Shown here: piece after piece, positions 7,771-23,750 of the stretch
Layout of the letters: each line of letters begins with the position of its first letter
Numbering within the stretch: the stretch's first letter is position 1
Source of the DNA: a virus
Length of the DNA stretch: 42,364 nt
IMG/VR virus record: IMGVR_UViG_3300047409_000472
Span: 1 to 42,364 of that record
Direction: 5' to 3' (one strand)
Program-made: the position numbers and the translations under genes
Notes under the pieces: generated by a model
The model's input: the letters and a program-made list of their open reading frames with translations, nothing else
What the model was told of the DNA's origin: nothing
Databases searched by the model: none

Positions 7771-8478
7771 TTACTTTCCGCCGCCACGTAGCAAGATGCC
7801 CGAGGGGGGCGCGCTCGATCCGGCGCCGGCAAGATCATTCCCATCCCAAGGACCGCCGCCAAAGCCGCCGCTGGCGGCATCGTTGTTGCCATATATGCCG
7901 TACGTTCCGGCCGTGAAGGCGCTGGATGCGTCGGTGATATTACTGCCGACTTGAGAAAAAGAGGTTGGGGAGGCGGCGAGGGCCTTCCAGATCTTTATAG
8001 TGACCGTGCCACCCGAAACCGTCTTTGAAATCTTGAGGCGGTCACCCGCAACACAAGATAACGAACCCGTAGACAAATCAGCCTCAACACCGGCCGTCCA
8101 TTTCCCAACAAAATAGTCGGGGCTAGAGCCCACTTTCGCGCCCCAAGCATAGCCGTCAGCCGCGCCGCTTGCGAGCCCTATGGAGGGCCCGGCATACCAT
8201 CCGGCGGTAACCCAAGATGCGGTGACCGTGACAATCGCTTCCTGGTCACCAGACGGAAGCGTCCCCGTCCAGCGTGCGAGGTTGTCCCCGGCCGTATTGC
8301 TGCGAAACTGACTAATGTTTCCCGTAGGGATGGTGAATCCCCCGAGAGTGGCCGCCCAATTAGAGGAGTAGGTCGCGATGGCCTGGCCGCTGCCGGTATT
8401 CTGATTGAAAGAATCGGAGGCCGCAAAGGGGCGCGCAACCAGGACGAGGAGGGCGAGTAGCCATTTCAGAAATTTCAT
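7771..8478 (-). CDS. Exported lectin-like (ConA-fold) protein 1
   Basis: 235 aa starting MKFLKWLLALLVLVARPFAA at ATG 8478 (GGGGT upstream, overlapping the previous stop). The N-terminus is a Sec signal peptide with a cleavage-like AAS. The mature protein is Ser/Gly/Thr-rich beta sequence with the LamG/concanavalin-like order: strands around WTGTLPSGDQEAIVTV, then CVAGDRLKISKTVSGGTVTI and a closing AGTYGIYGNNDAASGG. Such domains bind sugars. It forms a group with the next two exported genes upstream. Whether it is part of the virion or released to the envelope is unknown. Confidence 0.6.
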   Translation of the reverse strand: MKFLKWLLALLVLVARPFAASDSFNQNTGSGQAIATYSSNWAATLGGFTIPTGNISQFRSNTAGDNLARWTGTLPSGDQEAIVTVTASWVTAGWYAGPSIGLASGAADGYAWGAKVGSSPDYFVGKWTAGVEADLSTGSLSCVAGDRLKISKTVSGGTVTIKIWKALAASPTSFSQVGSNITDASSAFTAGTYGIYGNNDAASGGFGGGPWDGNDLAGAGSSAPPSGILLRGGGK

Positions 8479-9188
8479 GGTAACCCCGCAGCGGTATATT
8501 GGCTGATGCAAAAATCTTCGGGCGTTCCGCCGGGCCTGATGAAAAAGCCCATGCCGGGATTACCGTCCGTATAGGTGGCATCCGTGGCGGTCTGCACAAG
8601 CGATCCGTTCTTGTAAATATTGATGGTGCTGCCGACCATTGTCGCTTTGAGAATATCGCCCGTGGCTAAACTGCTGAGCCCGGTACCTGAACTAGAGAGC
8701 ACCGTTAGATTGCTATACGTCCCATCCCAGCGGACAACTTGCACGCCCGTCCCATCAAAACGAATGTCGATTTCATATCCGCGGGCATTGTGCGCCGTGA
8801 TCTGAAAGCGCAACAGGAGTTCTATTTCATGGCTATCTGGGGCCGTATAGCCCGATGCGTAATAAACTGTGGCTTGCGCGCTTTGGTTCGCCGGGAACCC
8901 CGACAGCACGGCGATACAATCGTTGTAATCGGAGGATGTTCCCGCCCCATACATGAGGTTGGGGGTGCCCGTGGTGGTGCGGGCGTTTTGCCAATCTAGG
9001 CCGGTAGTCCCGCCATTGGTCCATCGGCCACCCTCGGAGATCGGGTTTTCCGTGGCGGGGAAGCTGGTCGAATAGGACGGCAGGGAGCTCGGAGGTGGAT
9101 AAACGCCGAGAAGCTGGTTACCAGCCGCACTCCAAGCTGCGTTCGATAGAAGAAGGGCCCAAGCGAGGGCCTGGCGCAATAGATTCAT
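8475..9188 (-). CDS. Exported lectin-like (ConA-fold) protein 2
   Basis: 237 aa. Sec signal peptide NLLRQALAWALLLSNAAWSA, then a beta-rich mature chain with a LamG/ConA-type core: DSHEIELLLRFQI, YEIDIRFDGTGVQVVRW, GDILKATMVGSTINIYKNG, DGNPGMGFFIRPGG. It has the same architecture as the following gene and looks like a diverged paralogue. It starts 4 bp after the end of the 850-aa exported gene. A receptor- or polysaccharide-binding role fits its place among tail-fibre-type genes, but a signal peptide on such a protein is unusual. Confidence 0.6.
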   Translation of the reverse strand: MNLLRQALAWALLLSNAAWSAAGNQLLGVYPPPSSLPSYSTSFPATENPISEGGRWTNGGTTGLDWQNARTTTGTPNLMYGAGTSSDYNDCIAVLSGFPANQSAQATVYYASGYTAPDSHEIELLLRFQITAHNARGYEIDIRFDGTGVQVVRWDGTYSNLTVLSSSGTGLSSLATGDILKATMVGSTINIYKNGSLVQTATDATYTDGNPGMGFFIRPGGTPEDFCISQYTAAGLP

Positions 9189-9192
9189 TCAA

Positions 9193-11745
9193 TTACTCCG
9201 CGGTCGTATAGCCTTGGAGGTTGAACAGGACGCCGTTGGTCCCGGTCGCGGTTTTCTCCACGACCTTCAGCGAGTCGCCCGTATTGGGCGTGCAGACATC
9301 CACCGGCATGGGCGGGGCCGCGCCGCCGCCAGCTGCCTGCGCCCAGCCGCGCCAAAGGGTATCGGTCGCCGCGCCGGCGCCGGGGCTCGCATAAAGCACC
9401 ACTTCCGTGCTGATCGTCTGGTGCTCCGTCATTACCTGAAGCGAGGTTGTGCAAACCCGCAGGCCGGCGGCTCCGGACTTGGCCTTTACGGCGGTGGTGG
9501 AGGTCAGGCCATTGGCGGGAGGGGCGTAGAACCATTTCGAAGGCCTGATGGCGTAGGGCATGAAGACCGCTTTGCCATCAATGGTCGCAATCTGATCCAC
9601 GGTCTGGTCGTTGGAGACGACGGTGATATCCGAGGTCCGACCGCGGTTTCCCTGCCGCACCGGAGCGCCCGAGATGGCTGATCCGTGGGCAGCGGCGCCT
9701 ACGGCGGTCACCGTTCCGAGCGCATTCGAGCCCGCAGGTAGAGCGTTGGTGATGGCCGTGACTGCGCCAACGGTGGCAATCACGCCGGTCCCATCCGTCG
9801 GCAACTCCACACGCAGGGCGCCCGTGGCCGTGCCATGCCCCGTGGTGGCGTAGGAGACGGGCGAGGTGACGCCGGATGGGTCGACGGGAAGGCGACCGGA
9901 GGCGGGCGTATACTGGGCCAGGTTCACCCCGAACGCCGTCTGATCGTTCGCGATGGTCACCCGCGCAGATCCGGTGCCGGTGGCGCCGTTTCCCATCAGC
10001 GGGGTCACGCCGTTGATTTGGGCGACGTTCACCGTTTGATTCGCAGCCAGGGCAACAAGGTTCGTGGTGCCTGGGGTGGTCTGGTCGATGCCCACCTTCC
10101 CGATCACGGCCGAACTGGCTACAAGGGCGGGAGCCGTGGCTATGGAAACGGGCTGCGTCACGGCCGATCCGTCCACCTTGACCGCAGTTCCGTTTGCGGC
10201 GGTATTCGCGAGGGACACCTGAATCGGAGTCGTGGAACTCCCGAATACCGCGCCGGTCGAATCTCGAAGGGTTACGTGGAGCGCACGGAAGCGAGTAGCT
10301 TGGAATGCTCCCTGCTGCCCCGTGGTCAGGGGGTTTGAGGTTTGGGTGGCCTGGTAGAGGCCGCCATCAGGAACAAAGACCGAGGTCCCAGGCGTAAAGG
10401 TGGTCTCATCAGTCGCCGATACGCCCGATCCGGAGCAGTTCGAGCAGTTGACGGAAACGGCGGTGCCGTTCGATCCGGTATTGGCCAGGGAGACTTGAAG
10501 CGGAGTAGTCGAATTCCCCAAAACCGCTCCGGTGGAGTCGCGCAGGTTGATGTGCAACGCGCGAAAGCGGGTCATCTGGAACGCGCCCTGCTGTCCGGTG
10601 GTAACCGGATTGGAGGTTTGACCCACCTGGTAGAGGCCGCCGCCGGGGGCCAATACGGACGTTCCGGGGGTGAAAGTGGTTTGATCCGTCGCTGAAACTC
10701 CGGAGCCAGAGCAGTTGGCGCATTGCACGTTGAGGGCGTTGGCGGTGCTGGCGATGACATTGTTCGATCCGTCTACAAGCTGGGTTTTTTGGCTGCCGTC
10801 GCTCTGCTTGGTGCTGGTGGCGGCCAGGGTTGGAAGGCTCACGGTGCCGGATACGTTGGTCACATTCCAGGTTCCCGATTGCGCTGCGGAAACAGTCCCG
10901 GAAACGGGCTGCGTGACCGCGGAGCCGTCCACCTTCCACGCGGTCGTGTTGGCGGTATTCCCCGGCTGAACCGTCCAGGTCCCGGATTGAGTTGCTGCCA
11001 CCGTGCCCGATACCGGCTGAGTTGTCCCGGAGCCGTCCACACGGAGCCCGCCGGCCGTAGTCAGGGAGAGCGGGGAGGTCTGGGCGGTGGTATAAGTCGG
11101 GGGCGCCGTGGTGACTGCGCCCTGGGTGAGCCCGCCGGTTTGCCCGGAGGTCGTGGAGCCCTGGGCCACGGCGCCGGAGGATGCGCCGCTCTTGATATTC
11201 ACGTCCAGGGCGTTCGAGGTGGCGCCGATCACATTCCCGGAACCGTCCACGACCTGCGTTTTCTGCGCGGCATTGGTCTGGTTGGCGGACGTCGCCGCCC
11301 CCGTGGGAAGCGCCGAGGTGGTCACCGCCACGTTCGAGGATGCGCCCGCGCTCGATTGGTTTAGGAGGCTTACAACCCCTGATCCCTCGTTCGCCATCGC
11401 CTGGACCTTGATGGTCCCGCTGCTTCGTGCGGAAACCCGCGCGCGAATGAGTTTGAACCCATTCCCGGAAAGCAGATAGACGCCTTTGGCGGTGGCAACC
11501 GAATCAACAGCCCCGCCGGTCTGGTTCACGGCATAAACCGTGCGCCAATTAGTTCCGTTGATCGTCCCTTCAAACTTGACCGTGGCCACCCAAGTGCTGT
11601 CGAGCTGGAACGAAACGGAATTGTAGGATCCGGCGCTCATAGTGATGGCCGAATCGACCGCGCTTAGATTTTTGGAAAAGGTGGCCGTAATGGCGGCATG
11701 CGTCATGCCAACAAAGGCAAGCAGGGAAAAAATCAACTTCTTCAT
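9193..11745 (-). CDS. Large repetitive exported phage structural or adhesin-like protein
   Basis: 850 aa. Residues 1-18 (KKLIFSLLAFVGMTHA) are a clear Sec signal peptide. The body is low in charge and built of beta repeats: AVTQPVSGTV-type units followed by QSGTWNV (about 240-305 and 524-535), two KTQ-VVDGS-NVI-ATSNALDV units (about 162-183 and 320-341) and a tandem 89-residue duplication (343-522). The QPVSGTV...QSGTW repeats recall annotated virion or tail proteins of podo- and siphoviruses. The C-terminal third (about 690-850) is non-repetitive and may be a folded head. Between the Pal-like gene and two lectin-like genes. Exact role unknown. Confidence 0.65.
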   Translation of the reverse strand: MKKLIFSLLAFVGMTHAAITATFSKNLSAVDSAITMSAGSYNSVSFQLDSTWVATVKFEGTINGTNWRTVYAVNQTGGAVDSVATAKGVYLLSGNGFKLIRARVSARSSGTIKVQAMANEGSGVVSLLNQSSAGASSNVAVTTSALPTGAATSANQTNAAQKTQVVDGSGNVIGATSNALDVNIKSGASSGAVAQGSTTSGQTGGLTQGAVTTAPPTYTTAQTSPLSLTTAGGLRVDGSGTTQPVSGTVAATQSGTWTVQPGNTANTTAWKVDGSAVTQPVSGTVSAAQSGTWNVTNVSGTVSLPTLAATSTKQSDGSQKTQLVDGSNNVIASTANALNVQCANCSGSGVSATDQTTFTPGTSVLAPGGGLYQVGQTSNPVTTGQQGAFQMTRFRALHINLRDSTGAVLGNSTTPLQVSLANTGSNGTAVSVNCSNCSGSGVSATDETTFTPGTSVFVPDGGLYQATQTSNPLTTGQQGAFQATRFRALHVTLRDSTGAVFGSSTTPIQVSLANTAANGTAVKVDGSAVTQPVSIATAPALVASSAVIGKVGIDQTTPGTTNLVALAANQTVNVAQINGVTPLMGNGATGTGSARVTIANDQTAFGVNLAQYTPASGRLPVDPSGVTSPVSYATTGHGTATGALRVELPTDGTGVIATVGAVTAITNALPAGSNALGTVTAVGAAAHGSAISGAPVRQGNRGRTSDITVVSNDQTVDQIATIDGKAVFMPYAIRPSKWFYAPPANGLTSTTAVKAKSGAAGLRVCTTSLQVMTEHQTISTEVVLYASPGAGAATDTLWRGWAQAAGGGAAPPMPVDVCTPNTGDSLKVVEKTATGTNGVLFNLQGYTTAE
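10180..10719 (-). repeat. Tandem 89-residue duplication inside the 850-aa gene
   Basis: Protein residues about 343-429 and 432-522 are near-copies: each opens with a Cys pair (CANC or CSNC) then SGSGVSATD, TTFTPGTSV, GGLYQ, TTGQQGAFQ, TRFRALH, LRDSTGAV and ends SLANT..NGTAV. The Cys pairs could form disulfides in the periplasm, consistent with the signal peptide. Confidence 0.8.
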
Positions 11746-12257
11746 TTCAGATCCTCCAGAAGGAATTCAACGCGGCGGTTAAGGTGATATTGGGCTGGGT
11801 CCTCGGTGACGGGAGACTCCTCTCCAAACGATTTCCAGTTGATGCGCTCCTCGGCGATGCCTGCGGCTTCCAGGTAATCCCGGACCGCCTGCGCGCGGCG
11901 AGCGCCCAGAGCCAGGTTGTAATCGTTGGCTCCCTCCTGCGAGCAATGCCCGGCCAGGTCGACCTTTTTGAAAGGGTGCGAGAGGAGGTAATCCGCTAGG
12001 GCGTGGGCCTTGTCCAGATCTTTAAGGGAAAAGGAGTCGAAGGCGAAATAGAGGGGGCCTTTCGGTTGCATATCAATCCCCTTTTCGTCATCGAATTTCA
12101 GAATCGCTTCGTTAGGATCGAGCCGGGGTTTATCCTCCTGGAAGGGCTCGCCCCGCGTCACGGTCGGGGGACTGGATGGATGAATTGCCGGCCGTTTGGC
12201 GCAGGCGAACCCCCCGAGGAGGACAGCCCAACAGAGGGCGGGGAATAGGAATTTCAT
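11742..12257 (-). CDS. Pal/OmpA-like lipoprotein encoded by the phage
   Basis: 171 aa. Lipoprotein signal (FLFPALCWAVLLGGFAC, Cys19), a 50-residue linker, then an OmpA/Pal domain from about 68: LYFAFDSFSLKDLDKA, FKKVDLAGHCSQEG, YNLALGARRAQAVRDYL, INWKSFGEESPV and RRVEFLLED follow Pal in order. In Pal-type domains the box GH-A/T-D supplies an Asp that holds diaminopimelate; here it is GHCS, so that Asp is Ser, while the downstream Arg is kept. It would sit in the outer membrane facing the wall, possibly with weakened wall binding. It overlaps the inner-membrane coiled-coil gene by 4 bp, suggesting a linked function. Confidence 0.85.
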   Translation of the reverse strand: MKFLFPALCWAVLLGGFACAKRPAIHPSSPPTVTRGEPFQEDKPRLDPNEAILKFDDEKGIDMQPKGPLYFAFDSFSLKDLDKAHALADYLLSHPFKKVDLAGHCSQEGANDYNLALGARRAQAVRDYLEAAGIAEERINWKSFGEESPVTEDPAQYHLNRRVEFLLEDLK

Positions 12258-12658
12258 GGCTTGATCTCCGTGAGGTTGTCCAGTAGCGTTTGGTTTTCGG
12301 CCTTCTTTGTGGCTACGGAGGCGTTTTGCTTGCCAAGGTCTTGCACCGATTTTTTCAGCCCAGGGATCACCTCCATCATGGCACCGAAGAATTCCTGCTG
12401 GACCCGACCTTGCTTTTCCTGTTCGGCTTTCAGGTCGCTTACCTGCGCTTTGAGCGTGTCCACCTGGGCCTTGAGCGAATCCATTCCCGGCTTAACCGTT
12501 TCCAGGACCAGCTTCTGCCCTTCGACCTTGATCGTGTCTCGGCCGTGGGTCCAGACATAACCGCAAAAAACCGTAAGGAGCGCCAGAACGGCGCGACTGG
12601 GCCAATCCCGTAGAACCATGGATTTCCAATAGGCGATATCTTTGGGGGCGCGGGTCAT
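12254..12658 (-). CDS. Inner-membrane coiled-coil protein (candidate i-spanin or Pal partner)
   Basis: 134 aa. A positively charged N-terminus and one transmembrane segment (about 23-36, AVLALLTVFCGYVW) are followed by a long heptad-patterned region (MDSLKAQVDTLKAQVSDLKA, then LKKSVQDLGKQNASV). This is the topology of Rz-type inner-membrane spanins: N-in anchor with a periplasmic coiled coil. The overlapping downstream gene is an outer-membrane Pal-like lipoprotein, so the pair could span the periplasm. No homology to Rz is claimed. Confidence 0.6.
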   Translation of the reverse strand: MTRAPKDIAYWKSMVLRDWPSRAVLALLTVFCGYVWTHGRDTIKVEGQKLVLETVKPGMDSLKAQVDTLKAQVSDLKAEQEKQGRVQQEFFGAMMEVIPGLKKSVQDLGKQNASVATKKAENQTLLDNLTEIKP

Positions 12659-12706
12659 GATCCCCTCGGGTTGGCGGAAGGGCGGGGGTGGAAGTAGGTT
12701 TTGGGC

Positions 12707-12877
12707 ATGAGCCCATGGGCTATTATTTGGGCGGTCGGAGCGCTTGGCGCAGTCGCAGTTTGCCTTAAAGATGGTGCATGGCAGTTCGCGATCGGCGTAT
12801 TGCTTGTCCTCGGCCTGATCGGCATTGGCATCTTCGCCGAAACGATGGGATTCGACCCGCGTAAAAAGAAACCGTAG
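12707..12877 (+). CDS. Two-helix holin-like membrane protein on the opposite strand
   Basis: 56 aa, ATG 12707 to TAG 12877, lying in the only real gap of the late minus-strand block. Two hydrophobic helices (SPWAIIWAVGALGAVAVC and FAIGVLLVLGLIGIGIF) are joined by a short polar turn (LKDGAWQ) and followed by a charged tail FDPRKKKP, as in small class II holins. GGAAGTAGG lies upstream. The minus-strand reading of the same DNA is Pro/Ser/Thr-rich and looks like its shadow, although it would couple neatly at both ends. A plus-strand gene here needs its own promoter, which I did not find. Confidence 0.55.
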   Translation: MSPWAIIWAVGALGAVAVCLKDGAWQFAIGVLLVLGLIGIGIFAETMGFDPRKKKP

Positions 12878-12881
12878 CGGA

Positions 12882-15029
12882 TCACTTCATCCCTTTGATT
12901 GCGTTTTGAAGCTCGTAGATCAACCTTAAGCGCTCTTGCCCTGTTGCCGTTTTTAGCGCCTCGGTAATCCGTTGTGCGGCTTGGTTTGGTAGTTCCGCAC
13001 GCCCGGCGTTATCTAGGACCCGGCGCATGGCTTCCGGCTCTTGCGGGGTGGGAGGAAAGTTGGATGGGATATTTCCTACCGGCCGGCGCGGAGCGAGAGG
13101 AGCCAATAGGCGATCCGCTTCCGCTGCGCGGATATCTCCAAGCGCCCCAACATCCATTTCGGGATTGAGCGCACCCAGCGGTCGGCGCTGGATCTGCAAA
13201 GAAGACACCCGCGGCGGCAGGCCTTCGGTTGGCGGAGTTGGAGCCGGAGGCGGCGGATTCAGCGGTCGGCGCTGAAGCGCTTGCGGAATAACCCTGCGAC
13301 CCAAAGGGGCGTCGGAGGTATTCAGATTAAGCGGTTGCTGGAGCGCTTCCAAATTGGATTGAAGTTCTGGGCTCGGGGACGCGGGAGCCACGAGAGCAGG
13401 CTTCGTTCCGATCCGTTCCATAGCAGATACACTGCTATTCACGAAGCGATCGACGGCATCCGCACCCGAAAGCATACCGGCGGCCAGGCGAGGAGAGGAC
13501 AGAGCGAGCGCGGGCGCCCCGGCGACAGGATTCACGAAATGCCCACCGAGAGCGGCCACGGTAGGCCCTAAGGCGGCACGGCCGGTGAACTGCCGCGGAA
13601 GAAGTCCAGCCTTCCCTTCTGGGCCCAATTCGGCAGCCAAGTTTGCGAGCTTGGCTTCCGCGGTAAAGTCACCCCCAAAAAGCTGCTCCATAGCCTTAAC
13701 AGCCTCTTGACGATCGGTTTTGTTTTTTCCAAAAAGCGTCGAGACGAATGATTCTGCGCGCGTGTCGCGGGTCTGGGCTGATTTCCCAAGGAATGACTTC
13801 AGCTTATCGGCCACCTGTAATTTCTGCGACATGGACTTCATGGCATCCACATAATCCGGATTTCCAGAAGATTCCGCAGACTTTACCAGATCGTCCGCCA
13901 TCTGATAGCGGGATTGCTTTAGGGCGTTGACATAAGCCCCGGATTCCTTACCAAAAGAATCCCCGATCAGTCCGTCGATTTCTTTTCGGATTTGGCGGAA
14001 AACTGGCGCCGCAATATTCCCATCTTGGTCGGCTTTATTGGTTAAATCCGAAATCAGACCGTCGATCTTGTCATTGACGGCACGGGAACTAGACAAGACT
14101 CCGCCGGTCTTCGCCTGTTCCAGCACTTTGATCGTATTGGTGACCGGAACAGGTGGCATTTCGTGCAAGGCTTGATCTACCAGATGTTTTTCCGGGAGAT
14201 AGTCGTCCAGGTTGTCCAATACCTTTACCAGCTTTTGGCCGATTTCATGCTGCTTGCCTGCCGCCGCGGCCAAATCCTTCGCGCCTTGCCCGAAGCCTGC
14301 GCCGTGCGTTCGCAGCGCCTCTTCGGATACCCCGGAAAACTCTTGCGCAAGGCGACCCAAGAGCTTGTTTCCGCCATGGACTGCCATGCCTACGCCTTTG
14401 GCTACCACCGGAAGCGCCGCGCCCGCGGCGGCTTCGCCTAAGGCTGAAAGCGGGCTGACTTCTTTGCCTTGGACCGCATTATCCGTCTGGTGGATCGCTC
14501 CGCTTTCAGCGCCCATAAGTCCGCCGATGGCCGAAGCCGCCCCAAGCCCGGTTAGGCCGGCACTTCTTACCAGCGCACCGGCCGCGCCGCCTGTGGCGAG
14601 GCTTGGGAGAAGAGCGGGATCGCGGATGATTTTTCCGGGTAGATTTTGACCTTCGGTAGCCGCCATGGAGTTGGCGAACTGCCGACCGCCTTCGGCGGTA
14701 AAGGAACCTGGATCGCCAATCTTCGGGGCATTGGGCGCGCCGGCGTAGGCGAACGGGGCGATCGGCTTGTCGACAACCGCAGCGACAGCGCGGCCGGGAG
14801 CGGAAAGGGCGTCAAGTGCGCCTGCTCCCGCCTGGCGCAGCACGCCCGCATCCGCTTCCGCTGCCTTGAACGAGCGAGGGAGTAGCGCGCGCGCCACGGT
14901 TTCGGGGCCTCCGGCTCCGAGAGGGATACGGACGGGATCATCGGGAGCTTTGGCGGAATCCACCAAAGCGTCCCGCTCCCACGGAGAGGCGGTGGCGACA
15001 ATCTCATCCTTTTCCCAGGGCTTGGCCAT
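12882..15029 (-). CDS. Putative ejection (internal virion) protein
   Basis: 715 aa starting MAKPWEKDEIVATASPWERD; ATG 15029 has GGAGGAAG upstream and follows the previous stop directly. PWEKDE-type repeats at the N-terminus occur in podovirus internal virion proteins. Residues about 120-240 are Gly/Ala-rich and could enter membranes; about 240-470 is helical (QALHEMPPVPVTNTIKVLEQ), and the C-terminus is Pro-rich, then helical. As the last and largest of four such genes downstream of the tail block it fits the injectosome set that crosses the envelope during DNA entry. No lytic transglycosylase motif is visible. Confidence 0.65.
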   Translation of the reverse strand: MAKPWEKDEIVATASPWERDALVDSAKAPDDPVRIPLGAGGPETVARALLPRSFKAAEADAGVLRQAGAGALDALSAPGRAVAAVVDKPIAPFAYAGAPNAPKIGDPGSFTAEGGRQFANSMAATEGQNLPGKIIRDPALLPSLATGGAAGALVRSAGLTGLGAASAIGGLMGAESGAIHQTDNAVQGKEVSPLSALGEAAAGAALPVVAKGVGMAVHGGNKLLGRLAQEFSGVSEEALRTHGAGFGQGAKDLAAAAGKQHEIGQKLVKVLDNLDDYLPEKHLVDQALHEMPPVPVTNTIKVLEQAKTGGVLSSSRAVNDKIDGLISDLTNKADQDGNIAAPVFRQIRKEIDGLIGDSFGKESGAYVNALKQSRYQMADDLVKSAESSGNPDYVDAMKSMSQKLQVADKLKSFLGKSAQTRDTRAESFVSTLFGKNKTDRQEAVKAMEQLFGGDFTAEAKLANLAAELGPEGKAGLLPRQFTGRAALGPTVAALGGHFVNPVAGAPALALSSPRLAAGMLSGADAVDRFVNSSVSAMERIGTKPALVAPASPSPELQSNLEALQQPLNLNTSDAPLGRRVIPQALQRRPLNPPPPAPTPPTEGLPPRVSSLQIQRRPLGALNPEMDVGALGDIRAAEADRLLAPLAPRRPVGNIPSNFPPTPQEPEAMRRVLDNAGRAELPNQAAQRITEALKTATGQERLRLIYELQNAIKGMK

Positions 15030-15030
15030 C

Positions 15031-16206
15031 TTACGACTTCCTCCGGCGCTTCCCGTTCGGGTCGACATATTCCTGGCCTGGCTTCAGAGCGTTATAATCG
15101 GACTCGCCGGTGACTTGGGGAATATCCGCGGGTTTAGCAGAAGGTGTCGCCACGGCCGGAGTCGCTTCCCAGGCCGGTCCGGCGGAAGCCTTCATGTTCT
15201 CCATCACCTGCGCGCGGTTCGCGGCTTTTTGTGCCTTAACTTCTTCGGAATCTCCAGCACGCGGGAAATATTGCTTCTCAGCGTTGTCGAATTCCCCCGC
15301 GGAGATTGCGGCACCCGACTCCCGGCGAAGGGTGGCGTTGATGAAATTGCGCTCCGCCTGATCTTGTTGCTGGGATTGGGAGGATTTTGACACGTTTGGA
15401 GCCAATGCGCCAAGGCCGGCCGACACGCTTCCTCGGTCGTATCCACCCTGGATAAGCTTATCGAAAACCGCATTAGCCTGATCCATGCGACGACCGAAGC
15501 CGGCGGCGTCGAACTGTTCTTTATTTGGCTGCTTTCCTAATATCGCAGCCTTGGCTGCCTTGTCGGCGTTCGCGTTCGCCTCATTCGCTTGGGCGCCCAG
15601 CAAGGTGACTTTTGCCCCTGCCGCCGCAGGCTCATATCCCGATGCTAATGTTTTATTCTGTTCCTGTGTGAGTTGAAGCGGGCCCAATGCCTTCTTCTGG
15701 GACAGGTCGAAAGCGCCCGTATCCGCCTCGGTCTTGGCCGCGCCCAATTTGATCGGGTTGATCTGGGTTGCAAGGTCAATCGCCTGCCCTCGCTGGGTGT
15801 TCTCCTGCCCTAAGCCTGCGGTTTGCAAAAGTGCCTGCTTCGGCTTCTCTGCGTTGACTGCGTCCTCGTTGGCGATATCTTTCGCGCTGTACGGCCTCAC
15901 ACCGTATTTCATCGCGTACATCGCCTTAGCCGCCGCGGCAGCTTTGGAGTTCGCCACTCCTTGCGGGCCGTTGGTGACTCCCGTAGGCATCCCGGCCGCA
16001 TCCATACCGAGCTGCGGGCCGCCCGCCTGGCCCGTAGTCGAAGCAGGATCCGCCCCGGAGATCTGCTTCATCATGGCTTCTTTTTCCGCGTCATCCTTCT
16101 GGGCTTTCAGGGATTGGAAGTACCCCATGAAATCTTGCAGGGCCCCGCGCATCTTCTGGTCGCGCATCTGCGAGTTGGTCATCGCCATCATCGGGTTGTA
16201 TGGCAT
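15031..16206 (-). CDS. Putative ejection or internal virion protein
   Basis: 391 aa, helical and rich in Ala, Gln and Lys (NSQMRDQKMRGALQDFMGYF; KAQKDDAEKEAMMKQISG). The C-terminal part carries FINATLRRESGAAISAGEFD, a stretch often seen near the end of phage internal proteins (a substrate-like LRRESGAAIS segment), then a Pro-rich tail ending KRRRKS. Starts one base inside the stop of the previous gene. Function inferred from composition and position. Confidence 0.6.
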   Translation of the reverse strand: MPYNPMMAMTNSQMRDQKMRGALQDFMGYFQSLKAQKDDAEKEAMMKQISGADPASTTGQAGGPQLGMDAAGMPTGVTNGPQGVANSKAAAAAKAMYAMKYGVRPYSAKDIANEDAVNAEKPKQALLQTAGLGQENTQRGQAIDLATQINPIKLGAAKTEADTGAFDLSQKKALGPLQLTQEQNKTLASGYEPAAAGAKVTLLGAQANEANANADKAAKAAILGKQPNKEQFDAAGFGRRMDQANAVFDKLIQGGYDRGSVSAGLGALAPNVSKSSQSQQQDQAERNFINATLRRESGAAISAGEFDNAEKQYFPRAGDSEEVKAQKAANRAQVMENMKASAGPAWEATPAVATPSAKPADIPQVTGESDYNALKPGQEYVDPNGKRRRKS

Positions 16207-16604
16207 TATGCGACCCCCAGCGAAGCGTTAAAGGCGGATGGACCCGTGGGCTTGGCCTTAGCCATAGCGGAGAGGTAATTGGAGAACATGCCGCCGAACT
16301 GGTCCCAGGCGTGCCGCTTTTGCGCTTCCAAATCCTGCTGGGTATGCTTGTCCCTGATATCCAGCCGGTTCATTTCCAATTCTTGATCCCCGAGTTGGCT
16401 ATTCAGGCGCATTGCGCGTTTCTTCGCCGGGTCTTCTCCGCCCAGCATTCCAAGCAACGCGCCTCCACTGAGGAGGCCCCCGGCTACCCAGGGATTCGAG
16501 GCCATGGCAATCTTCGCGGCACCCATGCCCCCCAGCATGGTTGCCCCCATGCCTGCGCCCTGGAATCCGCCGCTTAAATCGCTCAATAAATCTTCCATTG
16601 CCAT
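16206..16604 (-). CDS. Small Gly-rich virion protein, possible ejection protein
   Basis: 132 aa. The first 55 residues are Gly/Ala/Met-rich and hydrophobic (GAGMGATMLGGMGAAKIAMA), like small podovirus ejection proteins that insert in the envelope; the rest is charged and helical (RLNSQLGDQELEMNRLDIRD). AAGGA precedes ATG 16604. Lies between the 620-aa and 391-aa proteins. A tail-assembly role is possible. Confidence 0.5.
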   Translation of the reverse strand: MAMEDLLSDLSGGFQGAGMGATMLGGMGAAKIAMASNPWVAGGLLSGGALLGMLGGEDPAKKRAMRLNSQLGDQELEMNRLDIRDKHTQQDLEAQKRHAWDQFGGMFSNYLSAMAKAKPTGPSAFNASLGVA

Positions 16605-16616
16605 TTCGGTTCGTCC

Positions 16617-18479
16617 TTACCTGTATAGAACGGAATAGGAAGGATTGGGATTCGCGCTAAAGGTTCCCGCATCCGGATCCCAGTACATTTTGATACCGCC
16701 AAAAGCTCCCGGAACCGTTTTTACATATTCGCCGTTCGGCGCCTTCTGAGAGGCTTTTAAGGAATTGATGATGTCGGCTTGTTCTTTTTTGATCCCGGTC
16801 ACGATATCTGCGTTTGAATTCCCGGTTGTACCCGTTCCAACCGTAAGCGCACCGGATTTGATGCCTGCGGCAATCTGATCATCCGAAAGCCCCAGGGCTT
16901 TGCCCATCGTGGTCGCAAGCTGCTGCGCGAAGGGTTGCATGGCGTCTGGATTGTTCTTCGTGAGTTCCATCCCAATCTGGATCCGCTGCATGGAGTTTTG
17001 GAAGTCCGCGGACTGAAGCGCGGCATCCACCTGTTTCTGGTCGAGGCCGAATTGCTGCGCAAATTCAGAGGACTTTTCGGCCAGGGAGGCGTTGAACTCT
17101 GTAGCTTGCGCCGCGAGTTGGTTGTAATCCAAGCCCAGCTTGGCGCCAAACTGCTTGTCCGACTGCGCGAGGTCAGCCATGTGCATCGTTTCCTGAAGCT
17201 GCATCTGCTGGTTGGCCAAATTCGCCTGTTGGGCAAGCTGGGCGGTCTGCATGGCTGTATCGTGGTCGAAGCCCGCATCCGTCATCACCTTCGTGAACGC
17301 CTGCTGCGAAGCGGCCATCGCTTCGTCATGCGAGAACGTGCCGGCCTGCATCTTCTCGGCGAACGCCTGCGCGGCGGCAGTCTGCGCCGCCTGGAAGGCT
17401 TGGGTATTCCCTTGAAGCGTGGTCTGAAGCTGGCGATCGAGCGCCGACTGCGCCGCCTGGTAGGTTTGCTGGCTCTGGTTGACCAGAGTGGTGAATTCTT
17501 CCGAGGACAACCGCTCCCCGGTGGTCCACTTCCGCTCGATTTCTTTTTGGTTGGATTGCCAAGCCAAATCGGCGGTATGTTGGTCCATCCCGGATTTGAG
17601 CGCGAATTCTTGGAAAGCCGCTTGGGTGGCAAACTGGCTGGCCTGGTTCGCGACCTTCTGCTGCTCCAGGCTGAGATTTCCCAGCCCTATTTGCTTGTCA
17701 AAGGCGAGCTTTTCCTTGGAGATTCCTAGTTCGCCTTGACCCAACTGGGTATTGAGAGCGAGCTGGCCCTTGGACACGTCCAGGTTCCCGGCGGCGATAT
17801 CCGCCTGGGATTTGGCGGTCGCGGCCTCGATAGGCAGGTGCTCGTTGAACTGCCGCTGCGTCTCGGCCAAGGCGGCGGCGGCCTGCTCGGCGGAAAGCTT
17901 TTGGCCCGATTGCTGGAGCCCGAGCCCGGCGCCGGCCTGAAGCCCCTGTTGCTCGGCCGTGGCGCGGTCCGCGGCGGTCTTGGCGTCGAAATCCCGCATA
18001 CCGAGGGTCTGCTGATCGGTCTGCTGCTGGACCGGCGTAAACGCCTGTCCGGTGCCCGGAAGGAACTCAAGCGCCGCCTGGGTGCGCAAGTCTTCGTTCG
18101 CCTGTTGGTTGCCCTTGACGGCGTTCTGCCGGGCAATGGCCGCGTTGGCGTCGAATCCGCCGGTAGGATTGGAGAGGAGGCGGGAGATCGCACCGGATAC
18201 CGCACCCGAGGTATCCACCGGGGCGAAAGGATTAGACCCCGAGGCTTTCGCCGTGCCTCCCGCCTCCAGATCCTTGCTAAACGCGTCGAACCCTGTCCCC
18301 GGCTGCGATGGAGCAAACGGGCCAGTCGGAGCGGCCGGCGTCTTCATGGCCGCCGTGGTTTGCGCGGTCTGCCGGTCTAAGGCTGCATTCCGATCGTCTC
18401 GGAACATATAGGCCGGCGCCTGCGGGGCTTGGGCAGCCATGCGCGCGCGCTCGGCACCTAGGTAATCGTCGTAGGCCAT
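16617..18479 (-). CDS. Gln/Ala-rich helical virion protein (putative ejection protein)
   Basis: 620 aa. Outside a disordered N-terminal 100 residues it is almost entirely helical with very high Gln and Ala content and recurring units such as QQAFTKVMTDAGFDHDTAMQ and FNASLAEKSSEFAQQFGLDQ. The C-terminal 60 residues change character and end WDPDAGTFSANPNPSYSVLYR. There is no transmembrane segment. Position, length and composition suit an internal virion protein; a tape-measure role seems less likely because the rest of the tail genes are short-tail type. Confidence 0.55.
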   Translation of the reverse strand: MAYDDYLGAERARMAAQAPQAPAYMFRDDRNAALDRQTAQTTAAMKTPAAPTGPFAPSQPGTGFDAFSKDLEAGGTAKASGSNPFAPVDTSGAVSGAISRLLSNPTGGFDANAAIARQNAVKGNQQANEDLRTQAALEFLPGTGQAFTPVQQQTDQQTLGMRDFDAKTAADRATAEQQGLQAGAGLGLQQSGQKLSAEQAAAALAETQRQFNEHLPIEAATAKSQADIAAGNLDVSKGQLALNTQLGQGELGISKEKLAFDKQIGLGNLSLEQQKVANQASQFATQAAFQEFALKSGMDQHTADLAWQSNQKEIERKWTTGERLSSEEFTTLVNQSQQTYQAAQSALDRQLQTTLQGNTQAFQAAQTAAAQAFAEKMQAGTFSHDEAMAASQQAFTKVMTDAGFDHDTAMQTAQLAQQANLANQQMQLQETMHMADLAQSDKQFGAKLGLDYNQLAAQATEFNASLAEKSSEFAQQFGLDQKQVDAALQSADFQNSMQRIQIGMELTKNNPDAMQPFAQQLATTMGKALGLSDDQIAAGIKSGALTVGTGTTGNSNADIVTGIKKEQADIINSLKASQKAPNGEYVKTVPGAFGGIKMYWDPDAGTFSANPNPSYSVLYR

Positions 18480-18760
18480 TATTGGACCCTCACGGTGGCG
18501 GTTCCGCCGTCCAGGCTATAGGTGATATCGCTCCGCGCAAACCCGAGGTGGATCTGCTGCGCATCCTTGAAAATGGTGTAGCAGGTAAAGGGCTGGATCG
18601 CGGACTCCACCACATAAGCCTTGGTCGGAACTCGACCGAGCCCATGGGCAATCTTTGCCACCGTGCCGGCCGTGGGAACGGCCACGCGAACCAGAATCGC
18701 TCCGGTATCCCCATCGGGAACCTGGGAGTTGATTTCGAGTTGGGCGGTATTTTCGATCAT
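18479..18760 (-). CDS. Small beta-rich virion protein
   Basis: 93 aa, mostly strands (GAILVRVAVPTAGTVAKIAH, GGTATVRVQ). AGTVAKIAHGLGRVPTKAYVV resembles the HGLGRxP motif in phage tail-fibre and tail-tip accessory domains. It overlaps the fibre-like gene upstream by 4 bp and the 620-aa gene downstream by TAATG. A small tail component is the best guess. Confidence 0.5.
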   Translation of the reverse strand: MIENTAQLEINSQVPDGDTGAILVRVAVPTAGTVAKIAHGLGRVPTKAYVVESAIQPFTCYTIFKDAQQIHLGFARSDITYSLDGGTATVRVQ

Positions 18761-19974
18761 TGGAGCGTATAGGGGAAGGTGTAGCCGTCGGCACCGCTCG
18801 GGGAGTAAAGCCCCTTTTGGCCGGAAGAAGTGAACGTGGTCGACGTGCCGCTGATATACAGTTGCATCACACCATTGGACTGGATTGCCAACGCGGTGCC
18901 AGTCACTATAGAGCTATTGTTCATCACGAATGGCGTAAAACTCTGGGTTCGAGCCGGGGTGATCCCTGCCGGCAAGCCCGTGATCGTGCAGGTGGTCGCA
19001 TTGCTGGTGCCGACCAGGTGCGGGATATACAGTGTGACTTGTTTTTTAATACGGGCATAGCGCGCGGTGGCCGTAACCGATCCGGACACCCCTGTCAAAG
19101 TGACGGTGAAGGTGTTTTCTTCGAAATCCTTAGCAGAAATCAGCGAGTCGGCCGTGACGGTGCTGGAAAAGGTGGCGGCGCCTCCGGTCGTTATCGTAAG
19201 TGCGGTGCTGGTCCCGACCGAGGAGCTAGGCCCGATCTTGAGCTTATCGGAATCGATATTATCGACGCCAACCGACCAATCGGATCCTCCCAGAATACGC
19301 AAGAGAAGGAGTGGATTCCCTCCAGCCGTTCCGCCCACGTAGGCCCCGAGCCGCGCATGTGAGCTGGTGCTGGTATTGTCGGAGTTTCGCACTACACCGA
19401 GGACGGTCCCGCCCGCCATGGATTTCGTGACATCAAGATTGAATTCAGGGGCGGAGGTGCCGATTCCCAAAGAGCCATCGATGGATAGCGAATCCGCCAT
19501 CCGCAGCATGTGCGTTCCATTGCGATAAATCTTGGTGTCAGATCCAATGCGAAGGCCCAGGGTGGCCACGATAGAGTCGGAGCTGGTGATTTTTCCGGTC
19601 GTCGCAAGCGTGCTATTGAGTGTTAGAGGGCCATAAAACTTCGCGGTACTATCCTCGCGCACCGTGAATAGGGAATCCCCGGTTCCCGACTCCACCAGAA
19701 GCCGCGCGGTCTCGCTGTTGTCCGCATCAAGCCTTAAGCGCAGGTTGGAAAGCGACGCAACCGCCAGCGATCCCGTATACCCGCTCATCCGAGCGGTCAC
19801 CTGCGCGATAGAGTCGCGAACTTTATTCCCCCAAGTCTGGATCGCGGTGAAGTTTCCCGAAAGGTTGGCGCGTGTGCCGGTCGTGACCGAGTTGAAATCG
19901 GTCGGCACCGAGAGCGTATCCACAGCCTGGGATGTGGACAAAAGAAGAAGCAAGGCGATCAGGATGCGGATCAT
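18757..19974 (-). CDS. Tail-fibre-like protein with a signal peptide
   Basis: 405 aa starting at ATG 19974 (GAGGA seven bases upstream). Residues 1-16 (IRILIALLLLLSTSQA) are a Sec signal peptide. The next part (DTLSVPTDFNSVTTGTRANL then FTAIQTWGN) resembles the start of many phage tail-fibre proteins, followed by beta repeats (GPLTLNSTLATTGKITSSDS) and a C-terminal module (TVTLTGVSGSVTATARYARI...) of the kind that ends fibre and tail-collar proteins. The signal peptide is the odd part: fibres are normally assembled in the cytoplasm. Confidence 0.65.
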   Translation of the reverse strand: MIRILIALLLLLSTSQAVDTLSVPTDFNSVTTGTRANLSGNFTAIQTWGNKVRDSIAQVTARMSGYTGSLAVASLSNLRLRLDADNSETARLLVESGTGDSLFTVREDSTAKFYGPLTLNSTLATTGKITSSDSIVATLGLRIGSDTKIYRNGTHMLRMADSLSIDGSLGIGTSAPEFNLDVTKSMAGGTVLGVVRNSDNTSTSSHARLGAYVGGTAGGNPLLLLRILGGSDWSVGVDNIDSDKLKIGPSSSVGTSTALTITTGGAATFSSTVTADSLISAKDFEENTFTVTLTGVSGSVTATARYARIKKQVTLYIPHLVGTSNATTCTITGLPAGITPARTQSFTPFVMNNSSIVTGTALAIQSNGVMQLYISGTSTTFTSSGQKGLYSPSGADGYTFPYTLQ

Positions 19975-21986
19975 CGGAAGGTCCTCGTGCGAATGGCGGT
20001 GCTGTACCGAAGCGCGTAGGCGTAGAACACGAAATCGCCGGACGGGTCCGCGTTCGTAAAGTCGAACTGGAAGAAGTTGCCCACGGCCGACCACGGCATA
20101 CAGACCTCGCTATGCCAGGTGTTGTATTGCCAGGTCAGATCTTGCCAGGTGATATCTTGCCACGGAAACGCATAGTTCGTGGCTTCGACCAGGATATCGC
20201 TCTGGTCATAGAGGCCATTTTCGGCGATGATGCGCAGCATGGAATCGGTATTCGTGAACGCGAACAGGTCCAGGTAATGGAGTTTGTTCCGCGCCATCTT
20301 GAACTCTTGCATCGCCGGGCCGGTCAGGATGCGTAACGCCGCGGTGACGTTTGCACCCCCGATCCAATCCGAATAGCTGGTCGCATGACGATAGAGGATC
20401 GTGAGGTCCTGGTTATCCAGAAGAATCAGCCCGCGATTGGCTTGCGGGATGAAGAGTCCGTATCCATTCCCCTGCCACGGCCCCGCCCACCGGCTGAGGG
20501 CTTTTCCCTCCAAGTCACCGGGGCCGGCCGCGCTCTGAAAGCTCTTCATGAACTTGAGGAGATCGAGGCAATACACCTTATTGGCGCAAGCCTTCGTGGA
20601 GTCATCCTTTACGGTGACGAGCAGCGTATCGCCATCCACCGCGTAGGTGATATCGGTGTCGGATTGGTTGGCGGTGAGGTTCTGATTCCCTCCGCCGGTA
20701 AAGATGGGTGTAATCTGGTCGGACACCAAGTAAATCACCTGGCCCGAGCCCGGCCAAAATTCCACTCCGCGACGCGATTGGAAAAAGATCCCTTGGCCAT
20801 ACTGCGCATGCGCACGCTGGCCGATGCACCCGAGCTGGGAGCTGATCTCTTGCAAGGGGTTGTTAGGGTTGGACTCGGGAAGCAAGTAGCAGGACGTTTC
20901 CTGCGCAACCCAAAGATCGTTTGCCTTTTTCGACTGCGCGCCTGTCTCACCCAGGGCGCGCGCGGCCTTGATCTTTCCCAAGCCTGGCAAAATGGTCTGG
21001 TGATTCCCACCGGAGTAAAACTTCAGGTTCACGGTATCGTAGGTCGGGAAATTCTCGATGATGAACGAATCCACGCCCGCGATGCTGCTTTGGAAGGCGT
21101 TCCCCTGGCTCGCGAGCGCCAGGATATGCAGCCGGCCGCCGGCATGGACGATGAATTCCCCCACAGGCGGGGCGCCGTTCCGGTATTGCAGGGGCGCGGG
21201 ACGGTTGCCCACCACCAAGGCGTCGGAGGTGTTATCCGTGTAGGTCAGAGTCCCCACGGCCACCTTACCGAGGTAGTACATCACCGATCCGGTGGCGTCG
21301 GTGCCGTAGATGTAGTAGTGGGTCACCCGTGCGTCCGCGGTGGCGTTCCAGGTGTAGACGCGCTGCTTTGCGGCGAGCGTGATGGTGGCTAGGTTCGACC
21401 AATCCGACTCCAGCACCTTGACTCCCGACTCCTCGCGGACAGCTGTCACGATGCCGAGATAGGTTCCCGTGAGTATGCCTGCGGCGCCAGCGGCAATGCC
21501 CACGCCGGTAATCGGGACGGGTGGGCCCATGGTCCGATCGGTGCAGGCCGTGCCGGCTACGCTATTCCCGTCAATCCTCCGGGGGGCGTCCTGGCCGTTG
21601 ACGGCGAAGAGCGCACCGAACGCGGGGGCGAAGTGGATTTCCTGGAGGGTAGCTAATCCGCTCTTGATGGTCGCGTGTGCGCTCGCGCTTTGGATTTCGA
21701 GGATTTTTCCGGCATCGGTCCCAACGAGCAAGCGCCGATTCCCCCAGCGGTCGATGAACTCAATCCCGCCGCGCCATTTGTCCCCCCAGGTCTCGGTGGA
21801 ATCGAGCTGAAACCCCTTCCGGCGCTGCAAGGTGTTCCGGTTCCAGACTAGGTTTTTTAAGATGCACGCATCCTCCCGGTCCATTTCCAGGAGGTTGTCA
21901 TTCAGGTTCAGCCCGCGGGAGAGTTTGACTTCCGCCGGGCCCAACTGCGGGTTGGGGTAGATTTTCAGGTCCGGGAAAGCAGGCAT
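19971..21986 (-). CDS. Large tail or neck structural protein
   Basis: 671 aa. It starts PAFPDLKIYPNPQLGPAEVK and continues with repeated strand motifs containing Trp and Asp (WGDKWRGGIEFIDRWGNRR; KILEIQSASAHATIKSGL), which suggest a beta-propeller-like fold, then WQDITWQDLTWQYNTW near the C-terminus. Large beta proteins of this type sit just after the head-tail adaptor in podovirus-like genomes and form tail tubes or hubs. No precise family is recognised. Confidence 0.55.
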   Translation of the reverse strand: MPAFPDLKIYPNPQLGPAEVKLSRGLNLNDNLLEMDREDACILKNLVWNRNTLQRRKGFQLDSTETWGDKWRGGIEFIDRWGNRRLLVGTDAGKILEIQSASAHATIKSGLATLQEIHFAPAFGALFAVNGQDAPRRIDGNSVAGTACTDRTMGPPVPITGVGIAAGAAGILTGTYLGIVTAVREESGVKVLESDWSNLATITLAAKQRVYTWNATADARVTHYYIYGTDATGSVMYYLGKVAVGTLTYTDNTSDALVVGNRPAPLQYRNGAPPVGEFIVHAGGRLHILALASQGNAFQSSIAGVDSFIIENFPTYDTVNLKFYSGGNHQTILPGLGKIKAARALGETGAQSKKANDLWVAQETSCYLLPESNPNNPLQEISSQLGCIGQRAHAQYGQGIFFQSRRGVEFWPGSGQVIYLVSDQITPIFTGGGNQNLTANQSDTDITYAVDGDTLLVTVKDDSTKACANKVYCLDLLKFMKSFQSAAGPGDLEGKALSRWAGPWQGNGYGLFIPQANRGLILLDNQDLTILYRHATSYSDWIGGANVTAALRILTGPAMQEFKMARNKLHYLDLFAFTNTDSMLRIIAENGLYDQSDILVEATNYAFPWQDITWQDLTWQYNTWHSEVCMPWSAVGNFFQFDFTNADPSGDFVFYAYALRYSTAIRTRTFR

Positions 21987-22690
21987 CAGAGCCGCCGGAT
22001 CCAGCGTTGCGGGCCGCGCAACGGTAAGGGGTCGGCCATGCCGTCCAGGGAGAGGCCATTAAGCCCGCGGGGGGACATCTGCCGCTGCCGGGCTTGGCCC
22101 TGGTTATAATCCTGCCAAGCTACCTCCAGAGCCTCCATGCCCTTCTGGCGCTCGGGCTCGGCCAGGCCGGCGAATTGGGGCGAGTCCTCGTATAGACTCA
22201 CCTTCGACAAGTAGCCCAAGGCCCGGAAGACCGAACCCGGGAACAAGCTGATCGTAGCGGCGAGGTTGGCCACGTCGTCATCGAATTCGGCTTGGTAATT
22301 CAGCGTGAGCGTGGTATCGCCCGGGGAGTTCGCGAAGAATAGCTTTCCCGTTTCCACGTCGATCCACAGGAAATAAGCAGCGGTCGCCGAGTCCTTGATG
22401 GGAGCCAGGATTTGCGCTTCATCGCAGGCGAACCGGTACAGGTTCAGCCGCTGCGCGAGCTTGTAGAAGTCCGCTGGCGGGTCGTAGGGGCCCTTGCCGG
22501 TTGCCGTGCTCGTGGTCAGGCTGGCGGTTTGGTTCTTGAACCGCCATTCCTTGGCATGCCAGATGACCCGCAGCCCGTCGAGGATGGCCATGCGGAGGCG
22601 TAATAGGTCAGGCGTGGACGTGAACGTGCCCAAGGCGGTTTTCAGCCGCTGTTGGAGTTCCGCTTCGACCACGGCCTGACTGAGCGCCAT
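21986..22690 (-). CDS. Head-tail adaptor (P22 gp4-like)
   Basis: 234 aa. Helical N-terminus with LRLRMAILDGLRVIWHAKEW, then PPADFYKLAQRLNLY, a segment typical of head-completion or tail-accessory adaptors that bind the portal ring, followed by strands (TGKLFFANSPGDTTLTLNY) and a helical end. Portal, scaffold and capsid genes are upstream and the tail hub is directly downstream, which fits the adaptor position. GGAAGG precedes ATG 22690. Confidence 0.6.
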   Translation of the reverse strand: MALSQAVVEAELQQRLKTALGTFTSTPDLLRLRMAILDGLRVIWHAKEWRFKNQTASLTTSTATGKGPYDPPADFYKLAQRLNLYRFACDEAQILAPIKDSATAAYFLWIDVETGKLFFANSPGDTTLTLNYQAEFDDDVANLAATISLFPGSVFRALGYLSKVSLYEDSPQFAGLAEPERQKGMEALEVAWQDYNQGQARQRQMSPRGLNGLSLDGMADPLPLRGPQRWIRRL

Positions 22691-22693
22691 CCG

Positions 22694-23143
22694 TTAGGCG
22701 CCTTCCGGAACATTGAGGCCGGCGTCGAGCAAGGCTTTCCGCAAGACCTCGTTCGCTGCCTTCTGCTGGTCGCGCTCTTGGAACGCCGCCTTGACCGTGG
22801 CATCCATGGCCTTCTCTTCGTCCGACATCGGGCGATCTTCCCAGAGGCAGACTTGGTTATGCCCGTTGCCGATTTGGGAGAATATGAAGTCATGCATCTT
22901 CTGCGGATCCACGCCGCGGAAGGTGATGTTCTTCCCTTCGGGGCCGCATTCGAGGAACGGGTCGAATTTCTTCCCGCGCTCCAGGCGAACGGTAATCGCC
23001 CGCGTCTTGATATTGATCGGTGCGCCGACGTAGGCCTGTTGGGACTCGGGACGCTGGAAGATGAGGACGTCCGACCCCCGGCCTTTCTTGGTGGTGAAGG
23101 TGTGCCGGACCGGCGCCTCTTCCTTGGTTTCCTTTTTTGCCAT
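22694..23143 (-). CDS. Hypothetical head or neck protein
   Basis: 149 aa. A basic N-terminus (AKKETKEEAPVRHTF) precedes a beta-rich core (SDVLIFQRPESQQAYVGAPI, AITVRLERGKKFDPF) and a charged helical tail (DEEKAMDATVKAAFQERDQQ). Not recognised. It is the first gene after the intrinsic terminator that follows the capsid operon segment, so it should be made at lower level than capsid. Confidence 0.55.
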   Translation of the reverse strand: MAKKETKEEAPVRHTFTTKKGRGSDVLIFQRPESQQAYVGAPINIKTRAITVRLERGKKFDPFLECGPEGKNITFRGVDPQKMHDFIFSQIGNGHNQVCLWEDRPMSDEEKAMDATVKAAFQERDQQKAANEVLRKALLDAGLNVPEGA

Positions 23144-23151
23144 CGCATAGC

Positions 23152-23190
23152 CTTTCGAAAAAGAAAGGCCGGGGATATCTCACCCCGGCC
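23152..23190 (-). terminator. Intrinsic terminator after the capsid/decoration genes
   Basis: On the minus strand a perfect 8-bp GC stem GGCCGGGG/CCCCGGCC (23190-23183 with 23174-23167) and an 8-base loop is followed by TTTCTTTTT. It lies 9 bp after the stop of the exported protein gene and before the next head gene. A strong terminator directly downstream of the capsid cluster parallels the arrangement after the T7 capsid gene, tuning expression of downstream tail genes. Confidence 0.85.
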
Positions 23191-23199
23191 CGGTTGAGG

Positions 23200-23739
23200 T
23201 TACGGCGTGAACAGTCGCCCGTTCTTGGGCCGGTTGAGAACGATATCCTTGGCGACACTCTTCAGCGCCACCGCGGAATTGCTGGGATTCCCTACGGTGA
23301 ACATCAGGGCCATGTACCCCTTGGAATTGATCACCGCCGTAGGCGTGGCCGCCGTGAAGGTGGTGATTGCGTTTCCGGAGGCGGTCACGGAATCGATCTT
23401 CGTCCACAGCCCACCGCCATCGGCGCGGGAGTTCCCGTACCAGATGACGCGGACGCGATCGGAATCGCTTCCGGTCGAGTCCTTATGGGCGAAGTGCAGC
23501 CACCCTACGGTGTCCAACGCGCCCGTCACGGGCTTGTCGGTCAGGTCGTAAAAGAAGTACGACGTATCGATTTCGCTGGTGTCCAGGTTGACGACGGCGC
23601 CCATAACGGGAACCGCGTTTCGCTGGGCGCCGAACAGCGCGATCGACTGGCCGATATTCCCCTTAGGGGACTGGCTCTTGGTGGGAGCCGCACCGGCCAG
23701 GGAGGCGAAAGCAAACAGGGCGACGAGAATCTTTTTCAT
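23200..23739 (-). CDS. Exported protein next to the capsid gene (possible decoration protein)
   Basis: 179 aa. ATG 23739 is preferred over the ATG two codons earlier because AGGAG is correctly spaced only for it. Signal peptide KKILVALFAFASLAGAA, cleavage-like AAP. The mature part is beta-rich (FGAQRNAVPVMGAVVNLDTS, DRVRVIWYGNS, INSKGYMALMFTVGN). Position immediately after the major capsid gene is where decoration proteins are encoded, yet the signal would send it out of the cytoplasm. Function unresolved. Confidence 0.6.
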   Translation of the reverse strand: MKKILVALFAFASLAGAAPTKSQSPKGNIGQSIALFGAQRNAVPVMGAVVNLDTSEIDTSYFFYDLTDKPVTGALDTVGWLHFAHKDSTGSDSDRVRVIWYGNSRADGGGLWTKIDSVTASGNAITTFTAATPTAVINSKGYMALMFTVGNPSNSAVALKSVAKDIVLNRPKNGRLFTP

Positions 23740-23750
23740 GGTCATTCTCC

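Follow-up and report, generated by a model that had tools for sequence, protein, structure and literature searches.

The window analysed here, the complete 42.4-kb IMG/VR virus record IMGVR_UViG_3300047409_000472, carries within its virion gene block several genes whose products bear Sec/signal peptidase I signal peptides (SP). Judged from their sequences, these proteins are very probably exported by Sec in spite of their position among virion genes. We propose that they are surface appendages which join the virions at or after lysis, and give this explanation as a whole a probability of about 0.5. Export of virion-block proteins, the premise common to both readings offered in an earlier note on this DNA, was supported: the start codons appear genuine, the arrangement recurs in unrelated phages, the SP is conserved in a second family despite divergence of its sequence, and the cysteine patterns fit an oxidising compartment.

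Signal peptides and start sites in the structural block

The main genes of the window lie on the minus strand, with an integrase at one end and a DnaB-type helicase at the other. The structural block, also on the minus strand, runs from the terminase (30252) down to 7771 in the order terminase, portal, scaffold-like protein, capsid. The earlier note had claimed five ORFs with signal peptides in this block; all five were found at their coordinates on the minus strand and all were called SP-positive. They encode a 181-aa protein (23200..23745, SP MTMKKILVALFAFASLAGA/A), a 405-aa fibre-like protein (18757..19974, SP MIRILIALLLLLSTSQA/V), an 850-aa protein with TQPVSGTV repeats (9193..11745, SP MKKLIFSLLAFVGMTHA/A) and two beta-rich proteins of 237 aa (8475..9188, N-terminus MNLLRQALAWALLLSNAAWSA) and 235 aa (7771..8478, N-terminus MKFLKWLLALLVLVARPFAAS). 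The mature 850-aa protein has six Cys, including two CxxC pairs, and the mature 237-aa protein has two. Each of the five proteins has a positively charged n-region, an uncharged hydrophobic stretch and a cleavage motif with small residues at -3/-1 located 15-21 residues from the start, and none of them has a later membrane segment.

The calls were made with a rule-based predictor rather than SignalP. In a calibration with 50 kb of E. coli K-12 sequence, 6/6 exported and 0/22 cytoplasmic proteins were called, and two inner-membrane proteins (tolA and ybgE) were miscalled. An SP-like start in a phage gene does not always mean export, as seen in another phage (L062:7263-8561), where the longest ORF of a P22-type major coat protein (phrog_283, 1e-64) has an SP-like N-terminal extension; the real start of this gene may be an in-frame TTG with AAGG upstream.

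A sixth SP gene of the block, absent from the list in the earlier note, encodes a 171-aa OmpA/Pal-domain protein (11742..12257, minus strand; PF00691 E=1e-14, E. coli Pal E=1e-16) which is a possible lipoprotein. SP genes thus account for 6/19 genes of the window block, against 0/123 in the structural blocks of six relatives that lack SPs (p=2.7e-6; p=2.6e-5 if only the first five SP genes are counted). These six records (HMO-2011, HTVC033P, RHph_Y1_10, Vibrio 1.182.O, MW202601 and MaAM05) were found through terminase or gp10 similarity. The MaAM05 record ('Microcystis phage', MW495066) is 274 kb long, includes lepA, proS and kimA, and resembles a bacterial contig with a prophage inside.

Shine-Dalgarno (SD)-like sequences precede most of the SP genes: the 850-aa gene has GGAGG, the fibre gene GAGGA, the 237-aa gene GGAG and the 181-aa gene AAGGAG. 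In three cases (the 235-aa, 850-aa and fibre genes) the start lies within the stop of the preceding gene, with an ATGA overlap in the 235-aa and fibre genes, that of the fibre gene being with the gp10-like gene. Because of these SD-like sequences and overlaps the SP start codons look genuine. The start of the 181-aa gene is most likely 23745 rather than 23739, since an SD-like AAGGAGA lies just upstream of the former, which is the first ATG; the SP is retained with either start.

The OmpA/Pal-like gene lies directly after that of a 134-aa Rz-like i-spanin candidate (12254..12658, minus strand; phrog_739 E=8e-6), and its product could be an o-spanin stand-in or an outer-membrane anchor during lysis. 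The window has no recognisable endolysin. Outside the structural block, a 69-aa lipoprotein-like ORF (32992-33201) with a clear lipobox (LTG/C) is a possible superinfection-exclusion protein, and the ORFs 33198-33905 and 35713-37719 have in common a near-identical stretch (ERRRKATTDCxWVKCC...GVITALPGRQLFRVMSSG), apparently the result of a recent duplication. Since the phage encodes an integrase it may be temperate. Searches with the major capsid, gp10-like, portal and terminase proteins found no close relative in IMG/VR, nor did a terminase search of GTDB contigs, and no prophage host came out of a pattern scan of GTDB.

Fibre, lectin-like and capsid-adjacent proteins

The fibre gene directly follows that of a 671-aa SP-less gp10-like tail protein (19971..21986, minus strand), the position in which a tailed-phage fibre is usually found, after the gp10-like or tail-tube gene. 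The gp10-like protein matched phrog_5107 (E=7e-8), phrog_8040 (head closure, E=4e-4) and the gp10-like protein of another phage (L013). The fibre itself showed weak similarity to a Pelagibacter phage tail fibre (E=0.01) and to phrog_3971, a family of no assigned function (E=8e-5). It was missed by an HMM of SP-less fibre N-termini, its likeness to the attachment motif being by eye only. AlphaFold2 models were poor for the fibre (pLDDT 32) and the 237-aa protein (pLDDT 40), and neither the fibre nor the 850-aa protein matched any PDB sequence. None of the SP-less proteins of the window could be recognised as a candidate fibre. After the fibre gene comes a 93-aa SP-less protein (18479..18760, minus strand).

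The 235-aa and 237-aa proteins had been described as lectin-like and secreted. Both were called SP-positive, and neither had a significant Pfam match, to a ConA-like lectin or otherwise. The 237-aa protein had weak PHROG virion structural and tail matches (E 0.0015 and 0.011), of which there were none for its 235-aa neighbour; in a forced pairwise alignment the two are 27% identical.

The description of one SP protein as following the major capsid gene also held, the 181-aa gene being directly 3' of the SP-less major capsid gene (23751..24983, minus strand). The latter was assigned by its position in the gene order and gave no match in the family search; the 181-aa protein likewise had no Pfam or PHROG family match and is a possible head decoration or head fibre.

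Recurrence in other podoviruses

The SP arrangement is not unique to the window phage. Three further podoviruses (L002, L004 and L112) have an SP-bearing fibre, and in these and in the window it lies one or two genes after the gp10-like gene. In podovirus ctLwi270 (L002; MW202554, Manatee Spring) a homologue of the 850-aa protein with an SP (14767-17307) is accompanied by an SP-bearing lectin, an SP-bearing capsid-region protein and, directly after the gp10-like gene, an SP-bearing tail-collar fibre. Re-reading of its starts added two SP genes, giving six in all. At 17288-17881 and 18513-20267 this genome has one unannotated SP gene and one gene annotated 'endopygalactorunase' with a misplaced start; read from a start codon further upstream, the latter also encodes an SP, which its annotation leaves out. 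Thus ctLwi270 resembles the window in having a repeat protein, a lectin, a capsid-region protein and a post-gp10 collar fibre, each with an SP. On the other hand, its repeat and lectin genes lie after the portal gene and clear sequence homology to the window is limited to the 850-aa protein. The ctLwi270 fibre carries a Tail Collar domain (the protein itself matched collar PHROGs, and in the set scanned one member matched PF07484 at 1.7e-23), and it matched a solved long tail fibre (8kec, 8e-6).

The second of these phages (L004, MW202801) has a terminase matching that of the window, and its SP-bearing protein near the gp10-like gene adjoins a homologue of the 93-aa protein. The third (L112) has the same SP-fibre pattern.

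Fibres of the SP-less relatives have their N-terminal motif right at the start. The HMM of these N-termini aligned to the ctLwi270 fibre within about 6 residues of the predicted cleavage site (E=3e-4). For the L112 fibre the two positions coincide exactly, with an E-value (0.12) that is not significant alone. That SP-less fibres start near the mature N-terminus does not refute export, because the SP start in the window has its own SD-like sequence and ATGA overlap. A scan for the AADFN-type fibre motif gave 21 stretches, some of them canonical SP-less fibres and none SP-bearing, and no cultured relatives were found for a Bacteroidota-like SP protein (L045).

Cysteine patterns in the TQPV-repeat family

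The repeats of the 850-aa protein are homologous to those of other phage proteins. A search of IMG/VR with the pattern TQPVxGTV gave 120 stretches, which yielded 109 non-redundant proteins with an intact N-terminus, 16 of them with an SP. CxxC or CxxxC pairs were present in 5/16 SP members and in 0/93 SP-less members (p=3.7e-5), so that the suggestion that the Cys pairs of the 850-aa protein suit an oxidising periplasm gained support across the family. The Cys content was 9.3 per thousand in SP members and 3.6 in SP-less members (p=1.3e-4). An even number of Cys, which Dutton and colleagues reportedly argued to be a sign of disulfide pairing in exported proteins, was found in 13/16 SP members against 28/63 SP-less members among those with any Cys (p=0.008).

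The signal peptides were also grouped by phage. Genes neighbouring SP members themselves encoded an SP in 19/69 cases, compared to 16/436 beside SP-less members (odds ratio 10, p=2.6e-9), and runs of three to five SP genes occurred at several loci (L044, L097 and L101). Such clustering is expected if whole sets of appendages are exported.

A second family in cultured phages

An SP-bearing protein of fibre type is also encoded by two cultured phages, Burkholderia phage BcepC6B (gp19, 'tail fiber protein') and Xanthomonas phage PBR31 (gp35, 'putative structural protein'). As in the window, a Sec SP stands at the N-terminus of a fibre-type protein; the genes of gp19 and gp35 close the structural block, next to those for spike and lysis proteins. 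Each is a single SP gene next to an SP-less spike or fibre, and the proteins are not homologous to those of the window. The SPs of gp19 and gp35 both have 17 residues. Identity between the two proteins is 47% in the SP and 77% over the first 39 mature residues. A pattern scan yielded 34 ORFs of this family, 33 of them with an SP, and in the remaining one the start is apparently truncated. Among 27 distinct sequences, identity is 26% in the SP region and 83% in the mature N-terminus. Divergence of the SP beside a conserved mature N-terminus is as expected if selection acts on the SP for function and not for sequence. The number of mature Cys was even in 20/22 members (p=6e-5, a guide only because the sequences are related).

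In its C-terminal domain gp19 shows homology to tail fibre gp47 (8vbx, E=9e-16), which was seen in the virion of Pectobacterium phage phiM1 (PMC11440229). Other Autographiviridae fibres have this domain as well, but the relatives examined (PP90 and SAA231) have a different, T7-type N-terminus and no SP. Since an SP-less spike or fibre adjoins the SP protein in BcepC6B and PBR31, the gp19-type exported protein need not be a virion part in these phages; SP-less spikes or fibres also precede several other members of the family.

Possible joining of exported proteins to virions

We suggest the following sequence of events. The five genes would encode surface parts of the phage (a tail fibre, lectin-like and repeat adhesins, and a probable head appendage), each synthesised as a preprotein. 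Sec of the host would export them and signal peptidase I would remove the SP, leaving a mature N-terminus that may correspond to the end by which fibres usually attach in relatives. The exported parts would fold in the periplasm, some of them gaining disulfides, while heads and tails would be assembled in the cytoplasm without appendages. Spanin-type lysis would then open the cell, the two pools would meet and the appendages would join the virions at or after lysis. Late attachment has precedents, as particles of P22 and T4 can acquire their tailspikes and fibres, respectively, in vitro. The coat proteins of filamentous phages carry signal peptides and take the Sec route on their way into the virion. 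However, those phages belong to an unrelated virus group and are extruded through the membrane without lysis, whereas the window phage is a tailed phage with lysis genes.

Joining to virions is favoured by the presence of SPs on bona fide fibre modules and by the lack of any recognised SP-less fibre in the window, and it fits both the position after gp10 and the grouping of SPs by phage. Alternatively, the exported proteins may stay with the host, in the periplasm or on the surface, and mask receptors or change adhesion, the virion using other parts; receptor masking would then serve superinfection exclusion or keep progeny off debris. The SP-less spikes or fibres beside the SP protein in BcepC6B and PBR31 and before several of their family members agree with this, as do the OmpA-like and small lipoprotein-like ORFs of the window and an integrase that points to possible temperance. 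We nevertheless hold retention by the host to be the less likely of the two, because the SP gene is at or beside the usual post-gp10 fibre position in four phages, the window phage has no recognised SP-less fibre to use instead, different surface families gain SPs together within one phage, and the genes lie inside the late structural block and not apart from it as morons do. A moron cassette of adhesins was likewise rejected as a full explanation, the SPs being spread through the block and recurring at the fibre position.

It is improbable that the hydrophobic N-terminus is an uncleaved membrane anchor or packing helix of a virion part, which would be assembled at the inner membrane or have the helix buried in the tail or portal. 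The predictor does confuse some N-terminal anchors with SPs, as with tolA and ybgE, and the coat protein of L062 has an SP-like extension. Against this, the h-regions are short, with small -3/-1 residues and the mature sequence immediately after them; in the gp19/gp35 family strong conservation starts at the predicted cleavage site and not before it; and Cys numbers are mostly even, with CxxC pairs limited to SP-bearing members. Wrong start codons or chance hydrophobic starts are very improbable as the source of the calls, even with a rule-based predictor, since SD-like sequences and ATGA overlaps fix most of the starts, nothing was called among the structural genes of the relatives or the cytoplasmic proteins of E. 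coli, and the SP recurs in nearly every gp19/gp35-family ORF. What the sequences themselves show are the SPs with their start sites, the recurrence and conservation of these SPs, and the cysteine patterns; SP cleavage, periplasmic folding and late joining to virions are what we infer from them.

Conclusion

Searches of the open-access literature found no paper that describes Sec signals as a general feature of the fibres of tailed phages. The closest remark in it concerns PBR31: in the passages found, a signal peptide is noted only on the esterase gp40, and that of gp35 is not mentioned (PMC10975493).

We tentatively suggest, at slightly less than even odds, that in a widespread group of tailed phages the receptor-binding fibres and surface decorations are exported via host Sec, the virions reach completion outside the cytoplasm, at or after lysis, and the adhesins are stabilised by disulfides. 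If so, assembly of a tailed phage would be divided between two compartments; to our knowledge, textbook accounts place it wholly in the cytoplasm. If the fibres are exported, the proteins that determine host range would mature in another compartment, where disulfide bonds are possible, they could be shared among phages at lysis, and cytoplasmic expression would miss them. The question is directly testable, since phages in culture, BcepC6B among them, have a fibre with an SP, and such an SP would be a cheap genomic marker of candidate receptor-binding proteins in uncultured phages.
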